This document shows, piece after piece, positions 2,396 to 14,724 of a stretch of DNA of 36,795 nucleotides; the stretch's first letter is position 1; each line of letters opens with the position of its first letter. Under the pieces are notes generated by a model. The model had not been told where the DNA came from. It worked only from the letters and a program-made list of their open reading frames with translations, and searched no databases. The position numbers were made by a program, and so were the translations under genes. Source of the DNA: a virus; IMG/VR virus record IMGVR_UViG_3300046007_002438, positions 1-36,795 of that record. One strand, 5' to 3'.

Positions 2396-3331
2396 ATGGC
2401 AACCACATCACAAGTCGTAACCTCAGCGCTACCTACCGCGTTTGAGGAGTTTTATAAGACCGGTGCGCAAGGTGTACCCGGGTTAATTCCGCAGGCGTTT
2501 AAACTTTACGGGTCAGGCACTCCCGGTAGTTATGCGGCTAATATTATGGATCCGCTTAAAGCCGCTGGTATGTATAGCGGTGCTGATCGTGTAGCGGGTT
2601 TGACCACCGGACAACAGCAGGTTGGCACACAACTTGGACAAATGCAGACCCCCGGGCAGTTTGCTATGGGTACGGGCGCTGTGGGTTCTGGTTACCTTGC
2701 TGCCTCTGGTTTACCTAGTATGCTTACCCCGGGGCAGATGCAGCAGTACATGTCTCCTTATGCGCAGGGTGTAGTTGATGTACAAAAAGAGCAAGCCATT
2801 CGTGATGCTCAAAAGACTCAGTTAGGTGAGAACCTTGCCGCTGCTCGCCGTGGTACTTATGGTGGATCTAGGCAGTTAATTGCGCAAACAGAGCGTGAGC
2901 GTGCATTAGGTACACAGTTGGGTGACATTCAAGCCAAAGGACTTCAAGCCTCATACGAAGCAGGGCAAAAAGGTCTGGAGGCCGAGCGGGCTGCTAGATT
3001 GCAACAGGCTCAGACTCTGGGTACATTGGGTCAGCAATATGGGCAGTTGGGGGTTCAGCAACAAGCCGCAGACATTGACCGCCTTAAAACTCTCGGTGCT
3101 TATGGTGACTACGAGCGTGCAATTTCACAGCAGCAAAAAGATATTGATTACTCAAATATGATGCGCCGAATTCAGTACCCTGAAGAACAACTTGAGAAAC
3201 TTAGTGGCTTTATTCGTGGTATCCCAATGACAGACACAATAACCCAAACAACTACCCCGCCGCCGTCATTTGCAAGTCAGTTGGCTGGTCTTGGGTTATC
3301 TGGGTTAAGTCTTTATAACATGATGAAGTAA
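2396..3331 (+). CDS. Virion protein, alanine/glutamine-rich and largely helical (311 aa)
   Basis: I do not recognise a named family. The central region (about 115-240) is rich in Ala, Gln, Arg and Glu and likely forms long helices. The N-terminal third has small residues and Gly-rich turns, and the C-terminus ends with a short hydrophobic stretch (QLAGLGLSGLSLYNMM). The position between two other low-complexity virion genes and the giant internal-type protein suggests an ejection or tail-associated protein. AAGGAA precedes the ATG, the gene is 9 bp downstream of its neighbour and 10 bp upstream of the next, so co-transcription is likely. Confidence 0.55.
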   Translation: MATTSQVVTSALPTAFEEFYKTGAQGVPGLIPQAFKLYGSGTPGSYAANIMDPLKAAGMYSGADRVAGLTTGQQQVGTQLGQMQTPGQFAMGTGAVGSGYLAASGLPSMLTPGQMQQYMSPYAQGVVDVQKEQAIRDAQKTQLGENLAAARRGTYGGSRQLIAQTERERALGTQLGDIQAKGLQASYEAGQKGLEAERAARLQQAQTLGTLGQQYGQLGVQQQAADIDRLKTLGAYGDYERAISQQQKDIDYSNMMRRIQYPEEQLEKLSGFIRGIPMTDTITQTTTPPPSFASQLAGLGLSGLSLYNMMK

Positions 3332-3341
3332 GGGACAGATA

Positions 3342-4817
3342 ATGGCAATGGGGATTACTCAGGCTCTTGAACTTCAAGAAGGGCCGATTGACACGCTGGC
3401 AAGACTGCCGCAACAACAACTTATTCAGATGGCGCAACAGGGTCGGATTGCTGCCGATATGTTGCCGGTTATCCTAAACGAAAAAGCCCAAATGGCTCAA
3501 CAGGCTGCAAATATGCAGGCCATGCAACAACCCATGCCACCCTCGGTAATTGAGCAGGCAATCGCTATTAATGCTCAGGCTGAAGCCCCACCCCCTCAAA
3601 TGCAGCCACAGATGATGGCTATGGCACAACCACAAATGCCTCCTATGGATGCAGGGGTTGCTTCGCTACCTTTACCAGAAGACGCTTATTCAATGGCTGG
3701 TGGCGGTATTGTGGCGTTTGATAATGGCGGTATGGCTGGTACGTTTGATAGTTTTATGCCTCAAGGAGAATACGATGAATTTTCTAGTTATCAACCAATG
3801 TTTCCAAGTATTGGAGCAGGTAATCGACGGTACCAATTAAAACAACTTGGGTACACAAATGATCAAATTGCATCAATGACTGATGCACAACAAAATTACA
3901 TCCTTAAAAATGTAAATGATAGACCGCAAGCGAGTGTAAAAAATGCTGCCGCTCGTGCTCCGAGTCCTGCTATCCCTGCCGCCGCCGCTGCTCCTGCTAT
4001 TCCTGCCGCTGCCGCCGCCGCTGCTCCCAAATCAAAGGCTGCAGAAGCGCCGCAAGAGCCAGAATTAGATTACACTGGGTTTAGAGCAAAATATGGGTTG
4101 GATATAGAAGACCCAGCAATGGCTGAGATCCGCTCCAAACTTGCCACTATGGGTGGTGACTCTAAACTTGATCGGCAGCACGCAGCCAATATGGCGTTGC
4201 TTCAAGCGGGTCTTGGGATAATGGCAGGTACTTCTCCGTATGCACTATCTAATATCGGTGCGGGTGCTATGAAAGGTACTGAAGCCTACGCTGCAAGTAT
4301 TAAAGATATTAAAGCCGCTGAGAAAGATTTGTTTAAGATGCAAGCCGAGTTGGCTAAAGCCGACCAAGCCCGTAAAGATAACAATGTTAAATCCTTTATG
4401 GACCATCAAGAAAAGGCTAAAGATTACGCTCTTAAACTGCGCAAAGCCGGTGTGGATGAGAATGTTGCACAAGCCCAGATTGGATACTATAACCGTCCGG
4501 GTCAGTACGAAGAATTAGGTAGGGCGGCTGAGAAATATCCGTGGCTTAAAGAACGCTTTACAGCCGGTGCTGAGAACCTTGAGATGAAAGTTCGTAGAGA
4601 CGCCGAAGCCTATGTCAATAACCCAATGTTGCCGTCTCAAAACCCAACGCTACGTGATTTAATGAAAAAGGCTAAAGACGGAAACGTACAGGCTACTAAA
4701 GAACTTGAAGCATATAAGGATCAATTACGAGAGTCTTATATCCGCCGTAATATGCCGGGTGGGCAAGGGGCGGCTGGCGCTAGACCTACGGTAGACTTCG
4801 GTTCTTTACCTAAATAA
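3342..4817 (+). CDS. Virion protein with Gln/Met-rich N-terminus and Ala/Pro linker (491 aa)
   Basis: Likely a structural or DNA-ejection protein. Residues ~15-110 are rich in Gln, Met, Ala and Pro. Around residue 120 there is an AGGGIVAFDNGGMAG motif close to the GGIAS motifs of the 719-2386 product. Residues ~205-240 are an Ala/Pro linker (runs of alanine interrupted by Pro and Ile). From ~285 the protein is helical, with a small-residue segment (LLQAGLGIMAGTS) that could be membrane-active, then a strongly charged coiled-coil-like region (~325-380). It has an AAGGGA ribosome-binding site and is followed 9 bp later by the giant virion gene. The function is inferred from context only. Confidence 0.55.
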   Translation: MAMGITQALELQEGPIDTLARLPQQQLIQMAQQGRIAADMLPVILNEKAQMAQQAANMQAMQQPMPPSVIEQAIAINAQAEAPPPQMQPQMMAMAQPQMPPMDAGVASLPLPEDAYSMAGGGIVAFDNGGMAGTFDSFMPQGEYDEFSSYQPMFPSIGAGNRRYQLKQLGYTNDQIASMTDAQQNYILKNVNDRPQASVKNAAARAPSPAIPAAAAAPAIPAAAAAAAPKSKAAEAPQEPELDYTGFRAKYGLDIEDPAMAEIRSKLATMGGDSKLDRQHAANMALLQAGLGIMAGTSPYALSNIGAGAMKGTEAYAASIKDIKAAEKDLFKMQAELAKADQARKDNNVKSFMDHQEKAKDYALKLRKAGVDENVAQAQIGYYNRPGQYEELGRAAEKYPWLKERFTAGAENLEMKVRRDAEAYVNNPMLPSQNPTLRDLMKKAKDGNVQATKELEAYKDQLRESYIRRNMPGGQGAAGARPTVDFGSLPK

Positions 4818-4826
4818 AGGGTTGCT

Positions 4827-7800
4827 ATGGATGTACGGATGCCAGATGGCACCATCGTCACCGGGGTGCCGGACGACATAACTCAGTCCGAGTTGATGCG
4901 GAGGTATAGCCTCCTGCAAGCCCCAGCAGCAGAACCCGAAGCCGACACTGGCTTTTTTGATATGGCAGGCCGTGCTGTTGTCCGAGGCGCTAAACAAACT
5001 GGGTCTCTTCTCGGCGATGTGCTCCCTGCCATGGTTGGTAAGGCCGTTGGTGCAGATGAATACGCTGCCCGTCAGATGGCTGAGGCCGCTGAAACCCAGA
5101 AAGAAATTGAAGCCAAATACGGTGCTCGGTATAAGGAGTTATCCGATGTCAAAGGGCTTGGTGACGTACTGCCATTTATCGCTGAGACCGTCCTAGAGCA
5201 AGTCCCAAATATTGCTACAGCCATAGTCCCCGGCGCAGGTGGCGCTGCTATTGGTGCTCGTATGGCGGCTGGGCAAGCGGCTAAAACCTTGGGGGCACGG
5301 GAAGCAACTGAAGCGAGTGCGCGGTACGCTGCACTTAAAGGCGCTCAAGGCGCGGCTTATGGTGGTGGGGCTGGTGCGTTCCTTGGCTCTTATGCTCTTA
5401 ACGCCCCAGAGATTTTCCAGAACATTTACGAGTCAACCAAAGACGAAGCCACTGGCGAAGGCCAGATGGAGTTGGGTGCATCCCTCTTGGCAGGTTCGGT
5501 CTCGGCGGCACTTGACTCTGTATTGCCTGCCTACTTGGTGCGCCAATTTACCCCCGGCATGAAAGCCGGAGTTGTAGAGAAGTTACTAGAAAAGTCAGGA
5601 ATGGCCCCCGGAATAGCCCGTGGAGCCACGGCAGGAGCAATAACAGGCTTTGCCACAGAAGCCCCCACAGAAGCCGCCCAAGAGGCTATAAGCATCGCGG
5701 CTGAGAAGTTTGTCAATGAGAACGCCGAGGTCTGGAATAGCAAGGACTTTAACCGGTTGATTGAGGCTGGTGTCCGGGGTGGCGTAGGCGGCGGTGGTAT
5801 CTCTACGGTGGCTGGTGGGGTCAAAGGATTTATGGAAGGCCGACCCGAGACTAAGCCCCCTGCAAGGTCACAAGTTGATGTAGGCGGTAGTGCCCTAGAT
5901 CAGATGGATAGGAATGAAGTTGAAGGCGAAGATGTTCCTGATACCTTTATTGACGAGTCTGGCGAATTTAGCGCATTGCAACAAATCGGTGCTGGAGAAC
6001 CACGTAAAGAAACACCTGCTGCACCACCCGCTAATTTGGAGCAGATCCAAGAAGTCAAAGCCGAGATTGGGAGAGTTAGCGCAGCCATCCGTGACTTAGA
6101 AAAACGTGGTGCTGATGAAACCCTATTGGCTGACTGGTACGCCGAACGGGAAAAACTTCAAGACTATGAACGGTCTTTGCGCCGTGAGGGAGAAGGTACA
6201 ACACTGCGTGCCCCCGGTGCCCGTGAAGAAGCCCTGCGCATGGCAGGTATGTCTGAGGAAGAAATCCAGCGTCGGCGTGAAGCCATGGGCGAGCCAAAAA
6301 AACTGTATCCGGCTACGCCTTACGATCAAAGTTTGACGTTAGACGACGTACGGGGTGCAGGTTTACCAACAAGAGAAGCCGAAGCCATAGTTGGTCAGGC
6401 AGCAAAAGGTAAGACATCTGGCTCAGTTCGCTATGTTCTCAACAATATTTTGGAAGGGAAGTTTAACTTTTCCGACGGTTGGCGAGTGCCGACTGACCAA
6501 GATTATGCCGACGCTAACGAAGAAACCCGTGCCAAATTTGACCGCCTAAAAGAAATATCAGAACTTGCGCCTCAGCAAAAATTACTAGCCCAGCAGATGG
6601 GGCTTGACCTTGTTCCGGCTACAGAAGAAACGACTCGTGAGTTTATATCGCCGATTGCGATAAGCGAAAGGGAGTTTGAGTTGACTGCACCAGCGGGGCA
6701 GGTTTCTGAAGAAGTAGATATTGAAGCACCGGCTGGTCCACCTGCAGCGCCTCTTAATTTAGTTAACGAGCAAAACATTAATCAACTTGAGGATATGCTT
6801 AACAGCCTGCAGCCAACTGCACAGGCGGATCAGGGCACAAAAAACTATCGTTCGTCGGTTCTTAACTTCTTAAACGATATTCGTGACTATCTCAAAACTG
6901 ACCCTGCTAAACGTAAAGAAAACCTTAGCGAAATTAATGCGTTCTTTAACACCCTTGGGTTAACTAGCGATCCGGCGTTAGCGTCTCGTCTTACAAAAGA
7001 CTTAAAAGGCAAGACTGCAGAGCAACAAAACGACATTATTAGGCAGCGCACCAATTTTCCTAAGATCAATACGCTACCCGGTATTAATGAGTTGCGGCAG
7101 AAGTTTCGTGACTTTATGGAGCAGCAAAGCATAGCCAAACTTGGTGAGTACCCGGGTAGTGCCGCATCCAGTACGTTTGCCTCCGATGTCTTAATTCCAA
7201 AACCTGTAGCCAACTTAATTCGTCAGTTACGCAACAGGGCTACCAAATCTTTGACGCCTGAAGAAAAGGCGTTTATGGCTTACATGAGCCGGTTTAGATA
7301 CGGCTTGGCAATGAAGTCGGCGGCGTATGACTTAGCCAATAACATCCCATCTGGCACTGTGTTTACTGGGCAGGGTACAAAAGAAGCCAAGTTATTCCAG
7401 AAGTTTGTTGAGGAAAACTTTCCTGCTAATACGTTTAGTGCTTTTAACAGCGTTGTCGATGAGTACAAATACAAGTCTAGAATAATTACCCAAAAATTAA
7501 AGAGACTTGACGACGCCAGAAAACGGCGTGAAGAGTACATGCGGCAGAAAAAAGCCGAGCGCAAAGAAGTCAAACAGTTTTTAAAAGAAGACGAAGAGAA
7601 AAAGCGCGAGCAAGAGAAAGCCGACATTGGCTTAAAGTATGCTAAAGAAATAAGGGCGATTGAAGAATCCTCAATGCCGTCTACTGTGTTTAATGCTAAC
7701 TCTCCATCTGGGTTGGCTAAACCGATGCACCCAGCAGTTGAAGAGCGGATTGCTAATGGTGACGTAGACGGAGCGCTAGAACTAATTGAGAAGTTCCCCA

Positions 7801-10800
7801 ACGCTAAATATTGGCAGTTGTTGGCTCGCAGACTTCGTGCGGCAAATCTTACCGTTACAACCCGCTTTGGAGAGCAAGACCGATTGGTTCGGTTTGACCT
7901 TGCAAACATTGCGCCTACGGTAAATATACTTGTTAATAACATTAGAGACGTTTACCCAGACGTTTACAACGAGTACTTAGCCCCTGCAATAGATCAGTTT
8001 AGTGGGGAAATTGACCCCACAATTTTTGCTAAAGGGCTTAGAAAGATTAAAGACGGTAAATTGCTTGGGGAAAACTTTGTTCAAAGTGCCCAAATTAAAT
8101 GGGTGCTGGAGCGTTATACCGATGCCTCTAAGTCTTTGACTGCCCCCGGCTTTTACATGTTTAGTAAGGATCTTGACGTTATCAACCTTAATAAAGACAA
8201 AGGTGGTGACTCTTACTACGCACTATTTCACGAGTTAATCCATGCTGCTACTGCACATGCTATCCGCAACCCAAGTAAGTTAAATGCAGCCCAGAGACAA
8301 GCATTAAGTAACTTAGAAGAACTGTATTCCCATACGCTATCTAACTACCCTGCGGTATCGGAGTATGGCCTTCAAAGCCTAGATGAGTTTGTTGCCGAGG
8401 CATTTAGCAACGCCGAGTTCCAATCGCTATTGGCTAATTTACCTTACAAAAATACTACGACTTCGGTGTGGTCCAAAGTTATTGAGTACGTCCGTAGATT
8501 GTTAGGTGGTAAAGACACGGTGCTGTTCGGTACGTTGGCTAATGCTGATATCCTGATGACGGCTACAGAAGTCCGTGGTCCTAACAATAATGCTTATAGC
8601 GGCACCCTGATGGGGGGTGCACCTCCTGTTAAACGTACGACTTACGGTACGTATCGGACAGCCCCTGATGTAGCAAACAACCGCCGCTGGCTTGACATGT
8701 TACAAAATCGTCCTAACTGGGGACAGGCTAAGGGTGGTGTTTCTCAGATGCTTGAGAATATTACAGATGCTACTCGGCAGCATTACCTTGGGGCGTTTAC
8801 GTTACGCCAACTCCAAGATTTAATTGGGGGTCGGTTGGGTGGTGGCGCTAAGAACTTTATTAATGCGGTTGAAGACATGCTGGAAGACCGCAACGCTATT
8901 CTTGAGCAGGTAAATAAAATACATAAGCAGTGGGGTACATACCAAAGTAAGAACCCGCAAGAAAACGAAGAACTCTGTTTATTAATGACGGATGCCACAT
9001 TGGCAGGATTTGATCCAGACGGAAAAGAAGATTTATTAAAGAAACCTTACGATTCTCTATCTAGTGAAGGTAAAGATAAGGTTGAATTAGTAAGGCGTTG
9101 GGTTAAGTTATCTGACGAAGCCAAGGATATTTATCGGGGAGTCCGAAACTTTTATAAAGATCGGTACAACGACTACAGGGCTTCACTGCTACGAAACATT
9201 GAAACCTCGATGATGTCACAAGACGCCGACTTCTATTCAACGGATCCAGATAAGGTAAAAGAAGCATACGCAAAACTTAAAAAGGCAAAAGATGCCTTAA
9301 TTAAAGAGTTTACCGACAACTCTATCGAGCCGTATTTCCCATTGAAGCGGTTTGGTAAGTATTCGTTTTACATTAAAAGCGGGACAGTCAACGGAAAGAA
9401 AGCCGACTCTGAGTTTTACTTGTTTGACTCGGCTCGTGCACGTAATGAATTTGCTAGGCAGCGCCGTGCCGAAATGCAGCGTACCGGGGATGACCGCACA
9501 ACTGATACCAAAAATACGTTAGAAGAGTTTAAGACTGCTAATCTTGGCGATCTACAAATGCTTGAGACGTTAAACAAGTTAGTGGACGCTGCCAGCGGCA
9601 ATACGCAAGGCACACTGCGTGAGAGTATCAAAGACAGTATTGAGCAACTCTACTATCTGACGTTGCCAAGTAAGAGCATGCGGAAGATGTTTATTAACCG
9701 TAGGCAAGTATCTGGTTCCAGTAAAGATATGATTCGGGCGTTTGCCGATTCTGCCTTCCACATGGCGTATCAGCATTCTCGGTTTAAGCATACCCGTGAC
9801 ATGTTCGCTCAGTTGGATTCTGCCAAGGCTGTTCGGGAAGGTAAGCCAGACGGGCAAGAAAAGAAGATAGATAGCGACTACATTGCTGAGTTAGAGAAGC
9901 GTCTTAAATACATCATGAACCCGACAGACACGGGCACCATCCCGTCGATCCTGTCCAACGTGTCATTCTTATGGTATCTAACGGCTCCAGCGTCGGCTTT
10001 GGTAAACATGCTAGGCGTGCCTGCTATCGGCTTTCCTGTGCTATCCGCACGGTTTGGCAAAACTAAAGCAGCGGCTGCGCTGGCGTCTTACGGCAAAAAG
10101 TTTATGACATCTGGGTTTAAGGATGCTAACGGTAACTGGACTATGCCTTCGCTTGGGCAAACTGCACTAACACCCCAAGAAAAAGCAGCCTACGATACCT
10201 TTGTTGCCAGCGGCCTGATTGATATTACGCAGTCACACGACCTAGCCGGTGTAGCCGAAGCCCCATCCGATCTGTATACCGGGCGCATGAACGCCATCAT
10301 GAAAGGCTTTAGCGCAATGTTCCACCACGCCGAGCGGTTTAACCGTGAGGTTGTGGCTATGAGTGCATTCCGTATGGCCTACGATGCGGCAACTAAAGCC
10401 GGTGATCCCCCGTTTGTGGCGTTTAATAAAGCAGTAGATCAGGCTAAAGACCTTACTTACCGGTCAATGTTTGACTACTCAACTCTGAATAAGCCTCGTT
10501 ATCTACAGAACGCTTACGCTAAAGTCATCCTACAGTTTAAGCAGTTCCCCCAGCAGATGACGTACTTGCTAACTCGTAGTGGCTACGAGTGGCTTAATAA
10601 CCTAAGCGAAGATCAGATTCAGCAGATCCGTGAGAACATCAACGCCGAGCGGGTTCGGTACGGACAGACTCCACTTTCCGGTGCGCAGTTAGACGCGGCA
10701 ACGCAAGAACAAGTCAAACTTATTCGCAAAGAAGGCCGAGACCGTTTGCTTGGTACGCTGGGTATGACGTTCCTAGTTGCAGGGGCTACCGGTCTGCCTC

Positions 10801-11624
10801 TGTTCTCAGTCGGCTCGGCTGTAATTGAAGCCATGCACGCAGCGTTCTCTGATGAGGATGAGCCACCGCTTGACTTTGAGAATTGGTTCAAGAACTGGAT
10901 GGCAGAGACGTTTGGCGATTTCTGGGGTGACTCCATAACCCGTGGTCTTGTTACACAGGCTACAGGCGTAAACATCGCAGACCGTATGAGTCTTAATGAT
11001 CTATGGTTCAGGGATTCCCGCAAGAGCCAAGATGAGGTTACGGCTTTCCAGAACATGATTATTAACCTGCTTGGGCCGACGGCAGCGCTTGGGGTTAGTG
11101 GGGCTGAAGCCCTTAAATTATTTAACGATGGGCACTATTACCGTGCTACAGAACGTGTCCTACCTGCCGTGTTTAAACAGCCGTTGGTTGGCATGCGGTA
11201 CGCTACAGAGGGTGTGCTGACTTTAAAAGGCGACGATTTAGTATCGCAGTCTGACATTAGCGCTAAAGATTCCCTGTCTCAATCCCTTGGCTTTGCACCA
11301 GAAAAGGTAGCACAACGGCAAAAAGCCAACATTGAGACGAAAGGTAAAGAGCAGGAAATTATTACCAAACGTCAAGACTTGATGAATGCTTTCTTTATGA
11401 GCGTAGACACAATGGACATGGATCTCATGGATCGCGTACTTGACAAAATTACTCGGTTTAATTCTATGTACCCATCATATCCAATTTTGGGGGAATCACT
11501 TGAGCGTTCAATAAACAACCGCTACAAGGCCCGCGCACTAGCCGAAATTACCGGTGGTATTCCAATTAACAAGAACCTCATGGCAGAACTTGAGGGCATG
11601 GGGTACTACGGCGGCGTTAAGTGA
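4827..11624 (+). CDS. Giant polyvalent/internal virion protein, PLxRFG type with HELIH motif (2265 aa)
   Basis: Very large multi-domain protein of the class called PLxRFG or large polyvalent proteins, thought to be packaged in the virion and injected with the DNA. The N-terminus (about 1-30) is a small beta-type module. Residues ~125-330 contain several Ala/Gly-rich amphipathic or membrane-like stretches. A charged coiled-coil region lies near ~880-950. HELIH at 1135-1139, with EFVAEAF around 1187-1193 supplying a candidate third ligand (E1191), matches a zinc metallopeptidase arrangement. PLKRFG is at 1505-1510 and gives the family name. The C-terminal third has hydrophobic segments near ~1710-1735 and ~1980-2000. 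Its role could be peptidoglycan passage, host protein cleavage or formation of an ejection conduit. It ends the rightward structural operon. Confidence 0.75.
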   Translation: MDVRMPDGTIVTGVPDDITQSELMRRYSLLQAPAAEPEADTGFFDMAGRAVVRGAKQTGSLLGDVLPAMVGKAVGADEYAARQMAEAAETQKEIEAKYGARYKELSDVKGLGDVLPFIAETVLEQVPNIATAIVPGAGGAAIGARMAAGQAAKTLGAREATEASARYAALKGAQGAAYGGGAGAFLGSYALNAPEIFQNIYESTKDEATGEGQMELGASLLAGSVSAALDSVLPAYLVRQFTPGMKAGVVEKLLEKSGMAPGIARGATAGAITGFATEAPTEAAQEAISIAAEKFVNENAEVWNSKDFNRLIEAGVRGGVGGGGISTVAGGVKGFMEGRPETKPPARSQVDVGGSALDQMDRNEVEGEDVPDTFIDESGEFSALQQIGAGEPRKETPAAPPANLEQIQEVKAEIGRVSAAIRDLEKRGADETLLADWYAEREKLQDYERSLRREGEGTTLRAPGAREEALRMAGMSEEEIQRRREAMGEPKKLYPATPYDQSLTLDDVRGAGLPTREAEAIVGQAAKGKTSGSVRYVLNNILEGKFNFSDGWRVPTDQDYADANEETRAKFDRLKEISELAPQQKLLAQQMGLDLVPATEETTREFISPIAISEREFELTAPAGQVSEEVDIEAPAGPPAAPLNLVNEQNINQLEDMLNSLQPTAQADQGTKNYRSSVLNFLNDIRDYLKTDPAKRKENLSEINAFFNTLGLTSDPALASRLTKDLKGKTAEQQNDIIRQRTNFPKINTLPGINELRQKFRDFMEQQSIAKLGEYPGSAASSTFASDVLIPKPVANLIRQLRNRATKSLTPEEKAFMAYMSRFRYGLAMKSAAYDLANNIPSGTVFTGQGTKEAKLFQKFVEENFPANTFSAFNSVVDEYKYKSRIITQKLKRLDDARKRREEYMRQKKAERKEVKQFLKEDEEKKREQEKADIGLKYAKEIRAIEESSMPSTVFNANSPSGLAKPMHPAVEERIANGDVDGALELIEKFPNAKYWQLLARRLRAANLTVTTRFGEQDRLVRFDLANIAPTVNILVNNIRDVYPDVYNEYLAPAIDQFSGEIDPTIFAKGLRKIKDGKLLGENFVQSAQIKWVLERYTDASKSLTAPGFYMFSKDLDVINLNKDKGGDSYYALFHELIHAATAHAIRNPSKLNAAQRQALSNLEELYSHTLSNYPAVSEYGLQSLDEFVAEAFSNAEFQSLLANLPYKNTTTSVWSKVIEYVRRLLGGKDTVLFGTLANADILMTATEVRGPNNNAYSGTLMGGAPPVKRTTYGTYRTAPDVANNRRWLDMLQNRPNWGQAKGGVSQMLENITDATRQHYLGAFTLRQLQDLIGGRLGGGAKNFINAVEDMLEDRNAILEQVNKIHKQWGTYQSKNPQENEELCLLMTDATLAGFDPDGKEDLLKKPYDSLSSEGKDKVELVRRWVKLSDEAKDIYRGVRNFYKDRYNDYRASLLRNIETSMMSQDADFYSTDPDKVKEAYAKLKKAKDALIKEFTDNSIEPYFPLKRFGKYSFYIKSGTVNGKKADSEFYLFDSARARNEFARQRRAEMQRTGDDRTTDTKNTLEEFKTANLGDLQMLETLNKLVDAASGNTQGTLRESIKDSIEQLYYLTLPSKSMRKMFINRRQVSGSSKDMIRAFADSAFHMAYQHSRFKHTRDMFAQLDSAKAVREGKPDGQEKKIDSDYIAELEKRLKYIMNPTDTGTIPSILSNVSFLWYLTAPASALVNMLGVPAIGFPVLSARFGKTKAAAALASYGKKFMTSGFKDANGNWTMPSLGQTALTPQEKAAYDTFVASGLIDITQSHDLAGVAEAPSDLYTGRMNAIMKGFSAMFHHAERFNREVVAMSAFRMAYDAATKAGDPPFVAFNKAVDQAKDLTYRSMFDYSTLNKPRYLQNAYAKVILQFKQFPQQMTYLLTRSGYEWLNNLSEDQIQQIRENINAERVRYGQTPLSGAQLDAATQEQVKLIRKEGRDRLLGTLGMTFLVAGATGLPLFSVGSAVIEAMHAAFSDEDEPPLDFENWFKNWMAETFGDFWGDSITRGLVTQATGVNIADRMSLNDLWFRDSRKSQDEVTAFQNMIINLLGPTAALGVSGAEALKLFNDGHYYRATERVLPAVFKQPLVGMRYATEGVLTLKGDDLVSQSDISAKDSLSQSLGFAPEKVAQRQKANIETKGKEQEIITKRQDLMNAFFMSVDTMDMDLMDRVLDKITRFNSMYPSYPILGESLERSINNRYKARALAEITGGIPINKNLMAELEGMGYYGGVK

Positions 11625-11729: not shown

Positions 11730-11927
11730 CTACTCAAGTCTCCATACCCGCAACCCCTGTACCCCGTTTTCAATGACACCTTTCATTTCTACAGAATAGC
11801 GTAGTCTTTTAGCAACGCGGGCCACTTGCTTCTTTGCGTCTTCCAGATCCAAGCAAGGGATAAAGAACGTCCTCCCCGGCTTGAACCTGCTCCAGTCAAT
11901 CTCAAAACTAATCCCGTGGGCCTTCAC
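11730..11927 (-). CDS. Small conserved-looking protein, unknown function (65 aa)
   Basis: Last gene of the leftward replication operon. It uses a GTG start (no in-frame ATG until residue 48) and overlaps the end of the primase-helicase gene by 20 bp, which suggests translational coupling; no strong ribosome-binding site is visible. The product mixes basic and aromatic residues (DWSRFKPGRTFFIP, then a helix LEDAKKQVARVAKRL, then two probable strands). This looks like a small alpha/beta fold that could bind nucleic acid, but no family is recognised. Confidence 0.55.
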   Translation of the reverse strand: MKAHGISFEIDWSRFKPGRTFFIPCLDLEDAKKQVARVAKRLRYSVEMKGVIENGVQGLRVWRLE

Positions 11928-14724
11928 TTGTCGGATGTAGCGCCGCTACGTAGTCGTCAGGGTTGATAAAGTCACCTTTGGAACAGTCAAACATAAAGGC
12001 ATCCGTGGCTAGTCCTTCGATCTTGGTGCCTTTAGCCATGCGCTTCTTGACCGTCTTTTCGTAGATACCGTCGGACTCTAGGGCTTTCAAGGCATCTTTC
12101 AAGGTAATCCGGTTGTCGGTGCAGAACTTCCGTAGGTGCTTGGCACTAATAAATAACTTCTTGGTATCTGGCTCCATACGCACCAAAAGGTCGTATTTCG
12201 GCTCGACGATTGGCAGTTGATGCATCCCTGTCCGGTTGTCGGCAGCGTCATTAATGACCAGAATACTGCTCCTGTGCTCGTTTAAAAACTCACCAATTAC
12301 GCTGGCTTGGTTGGTAGAAGGAGGCTTGATCTCGTGCCGCATCTGGGAAAACTCTTTAATCATCCACTCAAAGACCCGTTTGATGTCAATGTCAATCAGC
12401 CCTAGTTTCTTGGCAATCATAGCCCCGGCAATATTACAGGCGGCTACGCCAGACCAGAACCGCTCCCGACCACTAAACTTTACTTTCTGGTCAATGACTA
12501 ACTGCACCTGCTTGACCATGTCGATGGCTTCTTCTAGGTTGCGAACTAGCCATTGAAGGTAGGGGCGCCCCGCATGACCATAGTTTAAGAACATTTTGGG
12601 GAACAATTCGTCGGCTTCGGCTTTTGTAATTAGCCCAGTTTCAGGGATTTGATACTCAATCAAGCGCATTAACTCCCCGTCCGGCGTGCCCGTCATTGCG
12701 CCGAGTTTGTCGTAGAACGAAGCGTTTGATGTACAGACGCACAGTAAAGCCCACTTAGATGTATTGAGCCGCTCCTGATTGACCTGTGCCTGTAGCCGCC
12801 CACGTGCTCGGCCTTGAGATACGGCATATAAGAAGTCAGAGAAGTCGTTCCCGTCCATCTTAGTTACCTCATCGCAACTGATCGGTAGGTGGTTCATGAT
12901 ACCCATACGGTTCAGTTTCATATTCATGGTGTCCCGCCAGATAAGCATCTGCTCGTCCGGATGTCCGTAAACACTGTGCATCAACTGGGCAATCGTAGTC
13001 TTACCCGTACCAGACCGGTTGTTAATTAGGTTAATGACCGCGCCCTTGAGGTTCAGGTGCTTGAGAAGGGGGGAACCAAACGCTGTAAAGAATCCAAACG
13101 CATGCGGCTCAAAGCCCTCACGGTTGTAGACGTTAGCCACTTCCTTCCATTCATCAAGTGACCCTACCGGCTGCATGTACTCAGACAAGTTGCTGGTAGC
13201 AGAAGACGGCGGGCTGTACCGAATTGCCTCGGCAGTAACTTCTTGGTCGCCAATAATAAATTTTCTATCTTTGTCAGTCCATCCGAATTGCATTCTCATC
13301 ACCTCTACTTCAGTTTTAAATTGGAGTTCGTTAACAAACTTAATCATGAATTGCGAGATTGCGTCCATTTGCTTGACGCCACCGACCACGCCATACCATC
13401 CCAAGCGCTCTTTTATTTTTTCTTTAGACATTAACTCAGTAACTGGTAAGGCAAACTCTCTTATCCCGTCCCTTGGTAGGTGTAGCCGAATCCAAGCCAC
13501 CTCACCACGATGCGGGTCGTGCATACGTTTAACAATGTACAAGTCGTGCGCATAGACCAGATCAGGATCTTCCCCGTCGCCATTAGAGCGATAGATGCCA
13601 CCGTTCTTCCCACGGAAATACGGAAACGGATAATCAGGAATTACAATCTTAGTCGGCGGTAACTCAGGTATTTCTTGGGGTACTTCAACAATGTTGTCTT
13701 CGGCAGCAGCCTTGGCAATCTTCTTGCCTAATTGAATCGGCCCCGCGATCTTGCCTTTGTGTGGGCACCCGTCACATCCCTCGGAATTGTATTTCTCAAA
13801 CGTAGAGCATCGTTGTGGCCCCCCGGTATCCATAGCCTTACGAACGGTTTCGGCGGCATTGTAGTCTGGGTGCCCTTCCGAGATCTTATGTATTGCCACA
13901 TCGCGGTCTTCGCAAGCCCATGCCACGGACAATGCTGCCCGCCATAGGTTGTAGTCAACCGTATCCTGTTCTGTAGCAATCTTTGCTATCTGCGCACAGC
14001 CTTCGCCTTTGATAGTCTTGGCGATAATAATCTTGAACCACTTCTCTTCATTGTTTGCCAGCGCTTTTGTCAACTCGTTAAGTTGTTGCTTAGGCAATTC
14101 AAATTCTGGTGGTGCAATTAATACGCCGAGCCGACTCTTGATCGTATCGTAATCTATCTCTGGTGCTATTGCTAGAATTGATACAGGCTTAGGTGGGTCG
14201 TCCTTAAAGTTTAAAGTTTCAGGAACCCTAAGTATCGAGGCTAAGTCTGACGTGCGGGATGGGTCAACATTGAAGTCGTACTCTTCGCACAGATACTTAA
14301 TGCGCTCGGCGACGGGCTTCCACTCTTCAGCAGTAACAGTCCTGCTAAGTCTCCAGTAGACGTGCAGCCCCCGACCTGAGTTAACAATGGTTGGCTTGGG
14401 TAGTCCTGTTACTTTGCAAAACTGTTGTAGGGCTTGGAGTCCTGTTGGCTGATCCGGATAGTCTTTGTTTTCACCGCAGTCAATATCAAGCCAAAAGGCT
14501 TTGATGTATTTGGCATTTGGTTGTGTGCGTGATGTATTGGACTCGTACTTAGAACAAGCAAAGTATGCGTTGTACTCATCCTTCATTAAGCCAGCAATTG
14601 CTTGCTCACATTCTTCCAATGTCTTGTGGAATGTCTGCCTTGGCTTACTCCCTGTTTTTAACCCAACAATGCAATACCATCCCTCGGATGGAAGCACCGC
14701 TTGTAGTAGTTCTGTTGTTGGCAT
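11908..14724 (-). CDS. Primase-helicase fusion: AEP-like primase plus DUF927-type/SF3-like helicase (938 aa)
   Basis: Predicted to prime and unwind DNA at the phage fork. The N-terminal domain resembles archaeo-eukaryotic primases: WLDID at 78-82 (D80 and D82 as metal ligands), SGRGLHVYW at 116-124, and RVPET at 166-170. A Cys cluster at C306, C317 and C320 lies in the middle. The C-terminal ATPase has Walker A (NNRSGTGKTT, K575), Walker B-like ISCDE (D618, E619), a CTSN sensor-like motif (664-667) and an R687 candidate finger, matching DUF927/SF3-like phage helicases. It starts 2 nt after the XRE-type regulator gene. The domain pair would provide primase and helicase functions for the family A polymerase encoded upstream. 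Confidence 0.82.
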   Translation of the reverse strand: MPTTELLQAVLPSEGWYCIVGLKTGSKPRQTFHKTLEECEQAIAGLMKDEYNAYFACSKYESNTSRTQPNAKYIKAFWLDIDCGENKDYPDQPTGLQALQQFCKVTGLPKPTIVNSGRGLHVYWRLSRTVTAEEWKPVAERIKYLCEEYDFNVDPSRTSDLASILRVPETLNFKDDPPKPVSILAIAPEIDYDTIKSRLGVLIAPPEFELPKQQLNELTKALANNEEKWFKIIIAKTIKGEGCAQIAKIATEQDTVDYNLWRAALSVAWACEDRDVAIHKISEGHPDYNAAETVRKAMDTGGPQRCSTFEKYNSEGCDGCPHKGKIAGPIQLGKKIAKAAAEDNIVEVPQEIPELPPTKIVIPDYPFPYFRGKNGGIYRSNGDGEDPDLVYAHDLYIVKRMHDPHRGEVAWIRLHLPRDGIREFALPVTELMSKEKIKERLGWYGVVGGVKQMDAISQFMIKFVNELQFKTEVEVMRMQFGWTDKDRKFIIGDQEVTAEAIRYSPPSSATSNLSEYMQPVGSLDEWKEVANVYNREGFEPHAFGFFTAFGSPLLKHLNLKGAVINLINNRSGTGKTTIAQLMHSVYGHPDEQMLIWRDTMNMKLNRMGIMNHLPISCDEVTKMDGNDFSDFLYAVSQGRARGRLQAQVNQERLNTSKWALLCVCTSNASFYDKLGAMTGTPDGELMRLIEYQIPETGLITKAEADELFPKMFLNYGHAGRPYLQWLVRNLEEAIDMVKQVQLVIDQKVKFSGRERFWSGVAACNIAGAMIAKKLGLIDIDIKRVFEWMIKEFSQMRHEIKPPSTNQASVIGEFLNEHRSSILVINDAADNRTGMHQLPIVEPKYDLLVRMEPDTKKLFISAKHLRKFCTDNRITLKDALKALESDGIYEKTVKKRMAKGTKIEGLATDAFMFDCSKGDFINPDDYVAALHPTSEGPRD

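Follow-up and report, generated by a model that had tools for sequence, protein, structure and literature searches.

A predicted zincin-like metallopeptidase links a giant PLxRFG polyvalent protein to the internal ejection proteins of short-tailed phages

The window analysed here is a 36,795-nucleotide stretch of viral DNA (IMG/VR record IMGVR_UViG_3300046007_002438, positions 1 to 36,795), in which positions 4827–11624 of the plus strand form a single open reading frame of 2265 residues with an ATG start and no internal stops, as first annotated. Genes for proteins of 555, 311 and 491 residues precede it in that order, and the next long downstream reading frame lies on the other strand. The 555-residue protein (719–2386) is Gly/Pro-rich and matched no family at E 0.01 or better; its homologues stand upstream in most of the loci checked that have enough DNA. 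A 938-residue primase/helicase-like protein with DUF927 (11908–14724, minus strand) is the first of the leftward genes, which include a DNA polymerase and a helicase, and terminase and portal genes occupy the right end of the window. The closest terminase matches are to an aquatic gammaproteobacterial phage and to pelagiphages. The large gene, its parts and its two immediate upstream neighbours are as follows.

2396–3331, plus strand: upstream gene for the 311-residue protein, PHROG 'DNA ejection protein' (phrog_4287, E 5.8e-16)
3342–4817, plus strand: gene for the 491-residue protein, directly upstream
4827–11624, plus strand: 2265-residue polyvalent, putatively ejection-type protein (NCBIfam PLxRFG family, E 5.1e-151)
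4827–4931, plus strand: N-terminal tag, residues 1–35, a beta-hairpin and helix in the model (block pLDDT means 83–90 for residues 1–30)
4944–5846, plus strand: Ala/Gly-rich helical N-terminal module, residues 40–340
7779–8576, plus strand: predicted zincin-like metallopeptidase domain, residues about 985–1250
8229–8243, plus strand: HELIH, putative active-site motif, residues 1135–1139
8385–8405, plus strand: EFVAEAF, residues 1187–1193, with E1187 as proposed third zinc ligand
8757–9215, plus strand: LPD39 domain, residues 1311–1463 (Pfam PF18858, E 3.1e-22)
9339–9356, plus strand: PLKRFG motif, residues 1505–1510, in a single copy
9564–11141, plus strand: PLxRFG core, a probable gp16-type hub-like region, residues about 1580–2105 (profile-profile match to phiKMV/PhiM1/T7-type ejection proteins)

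HELIH, EFVAEAF and PLKRFG all lie where the initial annotation had placed them. With the PLxRFG/LPD39 polyvalent proteins (NF032893; PF18858; PHROG 10089) the protein shares LPD39, the PLxRFG motif and the C-terminal core. The NCBIfam model NF032893 scores 504 bits against a curated cut-off of 100, with its best stretch at residues 1502–1929, and LPD39 passes its gathering cut-off of 27 bits with 79.6 bits. PHROG 10089, 'DarB-like antirestriction', matches best over residues 1361–1925 (E 1.3e-114), a match confined to near the C-terminal end of that PHROG; the methylase and helicase families looked for as marks of DarB were absent from Pfam, PHROG and NCBIfam scans of the 2265-residue protein, and the same scans returned no RNA polymerase domain. 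No Pfam model covers the zincin region, the best being no better than E 0.04 in all six family members. Seventy-nine isolate phage records match the protein. Among the matches listed (40 of the 79) all begin at residue 1215 or later, so that the N-terminal module and the zincin motif lie outside them, and the records that match the PLxRFG part are labelled variously as DarB-like antirestriction, DNA methylase, lytic transglycosylase or hypothetical. DNA metabolism has been guessed as the role of the PLxRFG family (PMC9505181).

The N-terminal module (residues 40–335) is 78–91% identical to that of five relatives and was present in 25 viral loci of IMG/VR, while a scan of bacterial genomes gave zero relatives. 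An Ala/Gly stretch at residues 125–330 had been described as hydrophobic and as a possible ejection channel. The enrichment is clear, at 37.4% Ala + Gly compared with 18.7% for the whole protein; the label 'hydrophobic' fits poorly, since only one 19-residue Kyte-Doolittle window within 40–340 exceeds 1.4 (1.56 at 220–238). The structure model of this part (mean pLDDT 67.8) is confident to about residue 120 and at 241–270 and mostly low elsewhere; its best structural match (Z 6.5) is to unrelated helical proteins, and two pore-forming proteins and a DEV ejection protein score within noise (Z 4.7–5.3). No relation was found between this module and the tetrameric ejection proteins (TEPs) discussed below. 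Ahead of it, the first 30–45 residues vary between otherwise similar proteins that have the same N-terminal module behind. By eye these tags are unrelated, comprising a PDG-type beta-hairpin with helix, a helical hairpin and several short-repeat kinds, and they may serve as exchangeable packaging or docking elements.

A whole-protein scan of IMG/VR gave nine loci, six of them near full length (L002–L007; 52–67% identity in the best segment). The proteins of L006 and L007 are identical and only L006 was aligned, giving a full-length alignment of six distinct sequences (the window and L002–L006). Both histidines and the glutamate of HELIH, the following A-A-T, and the block D-E-F-x-A-E-A-x-S-N from residue 1186 are invariant in all six. 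Because this invariance stands in a region (960–1310) where the relatives are only 42–65% identical to the window, HELIH is not a chance motif. Domain scans of IMG/VR widened the sample to 80 loci kept of 332 for the zincin, 25 for the N-terminal module and 45 for the C-terminal core. Among 131 relatives and the window, a zincin HMM matched 107 domains, in all of which H1135, E1136, H1139 and E1187 are conserved, with Y1180 in 102 of the 107; the HMM was derived from sequences pre-filtered for HE..HA, and the set holds duplicates (identical proteins, e.g., L022/L123, L028/L122, L098/L099 and L101/L102). A cleaner test is the subset found through the N-terminal module, where the four residues are kept in 8/8.

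The 25 loci with the N-terminal module comprise six contigs already known and 19 new ones. Three of the latter were dropped as cut short, namely L110 (275 aa), L115 (247 aa) and L111, whose partial sequence (1306 aa to the contig end) contains neither HExxH nor HExxxH, and L099 and L102 duplicate L098 and L101, leaving 14 distinct complete middles. A zincin-type motif is present in all 14: eight have the same zincin with all four catalytic residues, five (L104, L106, L107, L108, L113) have HExxxH, a zincin variant in Iyer et al. (PMC5512222), and one (L114) has HEIAH, which no zincin profile confirms. The five HExxxH proteins had initially been missed in a search for HExxH; L106 and L107 then gave weak HMM matches, and a nine-protein alignment including four of the five (L113 being close to L108) matched the zincin profile with probability 96.4 and E 1.4e-9. 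The idea that these five are zincin-free relatives, with an ADP-ribosyltransferase or something else swapped in, was rejected, as all five carry HExxxH. An ADP-ribosyltransferase is present in four of the 14, three by Pfam (L098, L106, L107) and the fourth, L100, solely through an HMM trained on the other three. L098 (86–8749) has a larger middle, with an HSP90-type ATPase, a second HExxH, an ADP-ribosyltransferase and the zincin between the same N- and C-terminal modules.

We modelled residues 960–2110 (1151 residues) from 61 sequences, with a mean pLDDT of 80.2 and a pTM of 0.64. Block pLDDT is 79–96 for 980–1169 (86–95 from 1080), 72 in the next loop, 82–83 around E1187 and below 50 past 1230. 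In the model, HELIH lies within a helix (1130–1147) that follows two strands, and E1187 is near the start of a later helix (1185–1194). A HELIH-type motif within a helix is usual for zincins. The picture named beforehand as speaking against a peptidase was HELIH hidden inside a helix with no ligand geometry; at the level of helices the model instead presents HELIH in a helix and a later helix bearing the invariant E1187. The predicted active-site helix, preceding strands and glutamate-bearing helix are those of a zincin fold, as is the alignment to the C1 domain of the N4 virion RNA polymerase, and the first and last of these elements are common to the zincin-like MPTase of Iyer et al. 2017.

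Among 868 chains compared with VIA-align, the top row is the PhiM1 ejectosome (8vb2; Z 8.6, 334 residues aligned, rmsd 22.9), a weak match on the scale that the tool itself sets for helical models. Rows two and three are N4 virion RNA polymerase entries (Z 7.2/6.9, rmsd 4.3/4.1, 180/173 aligned), the next row having Z 6.0. The aligned N4 range (2124–2362) falls inside the C1 domain, which carries an HExxH motif according to its authors (PMC12633501). The zincin scanned alone matches the PHROG 'virion RNA polymerase' at E 4.9e-11, in the HExxH region (profile positions 2072–2246). Compared directly, the domain and the single N4 sequence match weakly (probability 34, E 4e-4), and the core has no sequence match in the C-terminal region of that one sequence. 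The likeness to N4 is that of an HExxH zincin within a giant ejected protein. Plain Foldseek of the 1151-residue model, large for the tool, gave no match to the PDB at E <=0.001. Against predicted viral proteins it gave 69 matches at that threshold, and the 50 listed are mostly polyvalent proteins, plus two phiKMV-like internal virion proteins.

Profile searches also relate the protein to solved structures. A PDB search with the combined zincin and core profile returned the internal virion protein 9sfn_G (E 4e-14), the tetrameric ejection protein gp48 of PhiM1 (8vb2_A, 3.1e-10), 'gp10' (23sg, 1e-4) and the catalytic domain of lethal factor (3e-5), a weak match by which only a superfamily is shared. 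The first is of phiKMV type, as indicated by a full-length match to the 1337-residue protein of PT2, a phiKMV-like phage. By hhalign, the zincin alone matches an alignment of eight TEPs with probability 99.0 and E 3e-18, window residues 963–1250 pairing with PhiM1 gp48 274–515. Our larger TEP sample consisted of T7 and 16 others picked by eye among the 60 listed of 698 records, less one partial gene (L165), leaving 16. Twelve have the zincin, which is absent from T7, Acinetobacter Dino, mellemsur and MR6. Both histidines, the glutamate of HExxH and the equivalent of E1187 are kept in 12/12, and the equivalent of Y1180 in 11/12, PT2 having no tyrosine. Since the equivalent of E1191, the second glutamate of EFVAEAF, is found in only 1/12, E1187 is the better candidate for the third zinc ligand. 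The conserved residues, profile matches and fold comparison therefore bear out the earlier prediction of a zinc metallopeptidase (zincin-like) domain within a PLxRFG polyvalent protein, and the assignment, from which zinc binding and peptidase activity are predicted, is well supported by sequence and model.

A second, more distant relation to the TEPs lies in the C-terminal core. The core alignment of 61 sequences, from residue 1297, was compared with the C-terminal part of the TEPs. With eight TEPs the match has probability 79 and E 1.6e-5 over 416 columns (window about 1580–2105), its score of 54.8 standing against a maximum of 27.3 in 40 shuffles; with a full-length TEP alignment plus T7 gp16 it has probability 85 and E 6e-6. 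With 16 TEPs it rises to probability 94.5 and E 8e-8 over 393 collinear columns and a score of 74.9, whereas the highest-scoring of 50 block shuffles reached 39.0 (E 0.0017) and the reversed control 18.2. The offset of the pairing (about 760 in the window model with about 927 in PhiM1) differs by no more than about three residues from that at which the VIA alignment ends (744/908), a single end point, but one obtained by a method independent of profile comparison. Several other comparisons were negative: the NCBIfam PLxRFG model matched 0/6 TEPs, the core HMM made in this analysis reached at best E 0.0026 (Dino) among nine TEPs, T7 gp16 alone gave a non-significant E of 0.037 against the core, and the six-sequence core alignment gave a probability of 0.4. 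In a PDB search with a broader core alignment, which for several rows had been cut too far upstream and included some zincin, the TEP rows reach only the zincin end. An equation of PLxRFG with the 'YxPR' motif of TEPs, paired in a nine-sequence run, is not claimed; the 16-sequence alignment starts downstream of it. By profile-profile comparison, residues about 1580–2105 most likely correspond to the hub, the C-terminal part of TEPs.

The gene neighbourhood points in the same direction. Of 20 loci in which over 3 kb precede the large gene, 19 encode a homologue of the 311-residue protein there (blastp E 1e-4 or better), the weakest of the 19 at E 6e-5, and L101 is the sole exception; in some loci the homologue is part of a longer reading frame. 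A homologue of the 491-residue protein stands upstream in nine of 25 loci, five of the 25 having less than 1.7 kb upstream. Podovirus ejection operons run from a gp14-like through a gp15-like to a larger gp16-like gene, and phiKMV gp37 (1337 aa) is listed as a gp16-like protein (PMC8954989). Likewise, the gene for the 2265-residue protein is the largest and stands after smaller ejection genes. Indirect support for the initial proposal, that of a virion protein carried into the host, comes from these conserved neighbours and from the relation of two of its parts to internal ejection proteins of solved structure. Most probably it is an enlarged TEP of the T7 gp16/phiKMV gp37 type with the zincin next to its hub. 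With the phiKMV-like TEPs (phiKMV gp37 type, 9sfn; PhiM1 gp48, 8vb2) it shares a zincin with the four catalytic residues and a probable collinear hub; they are about 900–1250 residues shorter (16 compared), and LPD39 and the Ala/Gly-rich module have no significant match in them.

In the mechanism that we propose, the protein would be produced together with the smaller ejection proteins whose genes immediately precede its own, packaged into the head and driven into the cell along with the genome, with the C-terminal PLxRFG core serving as the counterpart of the TEP hub. H1135, H1139 and E1187 would bind zinc and E1136 would be the general base of a catalytically competent metallopeptidase, which would ride beside the hub and, once ejected, act on a cytoplasmic protein or on one close to the inner membrane. 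ADP-ribosyltransferases require NAD+, so those of the relatives must act at the inner membrane or in the cytoplasm. If the zincin travels with the hub to that same place, action after ejection is favoured. For T7 gp16 it has been proposed that the C-terminal part passes through the inner membrane, its hub projecting into the cytoplasm (PMC8954989). We lean towards an ejection protein whose active peptidase works after ejection, whatever its substrate, a reading that overlaps its alternatives in timing and substrate. A host protein has somewhat less than an even chance of being the substrate. The protein itself or another ejection protein is a distinctly weaker candidate, a zincin that needs no catalysis is rather improbable, and a wall peptide is more improbable still.

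The alternative that survives best, although we regard it as unlikely, is cleavage by the zincin of the chain that bears it, or of other head proteins, either ahead of packaging or in the course of it, which would free separate functional pieces. Self-processing is discussed for P1 DdrB by Iyer et al. 2017 (PMC5512222, section 8), long poorly conserved stretches (about 340–960 and 1250–1300) flank the zincin, and none of the 14 complete N-module relatives is without a zincin-type motif. However, the N4 virion RNA polymerase is packaged unprocessed (PMC5512222), and the homologous PhiM1 domain is modelled within the TEP chain of the mature particle (1103 of 1263 residues in the coordinates), a chain in which its authors name no further enzyme domain (PMC11440229). 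A second alternative, that the zincin fold is a non-catalytic relic kept only for packing of the core, would fit the four of 16 TEPs that manage without a zincin and the loss in TEPs of other conserved residues of the glutamate block (E1191, and in PT2 also the tyrosine). It seems very unlikely to us, because the positions kept are exactly the catalytic and ligand ones, both in the 107 domains and in the 12 TEPs, and because relatives have other zincin types (HExxxH, HEIAH) instead of losing the motif; a motif that is never missing, yet of differing types, speaks against a relic and would suit a host-varying target or a processing step.

The remaining alternative draws on how the homologous domain has been named. 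The PhiM1 authors describe an 'endolysin/exotransglycosidase-like domain' at residues 268–528, inserted in the hub (PMC11440229), and the main text of that paper contains no word that starts with protease or peptidase. Many records title phiKMV-type TEPs (e.g., that of PhiM1, L159:7198–10986) 'internal virion protein with endolysin domain'. Cleavage of peptidoglycan (peptide cross-links or glycan) for passage of the ejectosome, in the manner of the lytic transglycosylase of T7 gp16, would accord with that label and with the N-terminal transglycosylase of T7 gp16, which has no zincin, yet is hardly likely, on three counts. Sequence and fold comparison identify the domain as a zincin. PHROG 342 ('endolysin domain') aligns to T7 gp16 from profile position 4 but to PhiM1 only from 192 onward, leaving out the transglycosylase part. 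The hub, into which the PhiM1 domain is inserted (PMC11440229), has been proposed for T7 to enter the cytoplasm (PMC8954989).

Iyer et al. 2017 (PMC5512222) had already predicted that polyvalent proteins contain zincin-like peptidases, whose role would be self-processing or action on host targets, and had recognised the zincin of the N4 virion RNA polymerase; a 2021 review (PMC8472413) repeated the zincin prediction for Cbunavirus. Some of the relatives described here carry an ADP-ribosyltransferase and other enzymes, as do those polyvalent proteins. In the main text of Iyer et al., phiKMV, gp16, internal core and internal virion go unmentioned, and among the open-licence papers listed by our searches we saw none that ties PLxRFG to ejection hubs or names the phiKMV-type domain a peptidase.

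The link of the zincin to the internal ejection proteins of short-tailed phages suggests a role for the poorly understood PLxRFG family. For the family at large, we give about an even chance to the view that the PLxRFG/LPD39 polyvalent proteins, the 'DarB-like' giants among them, represent enlarged TEPs. The gp16-type hub would be their shared delivery chassis and the enzymes in front of it (zincins of several clades, ADP-ribosyltransferases, an HSP90-type ATPase, methylases) cargo carried into the cytoplasm, with the 'endolysin' domain of the PhiM1/phiKMV type as a minimal cargo, a metallopeptidase. For the domain in the published ejectosome structures, our results suggest a different enzyme class and hence a different assay to choose. 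If this view is true, the PLxRFG family would be tied to a solved ejection protein, so that its purpose could be stated and a structural template gained, and the delivery of enzymes alongside phage DNA would become a testable question of chassis and cargo.
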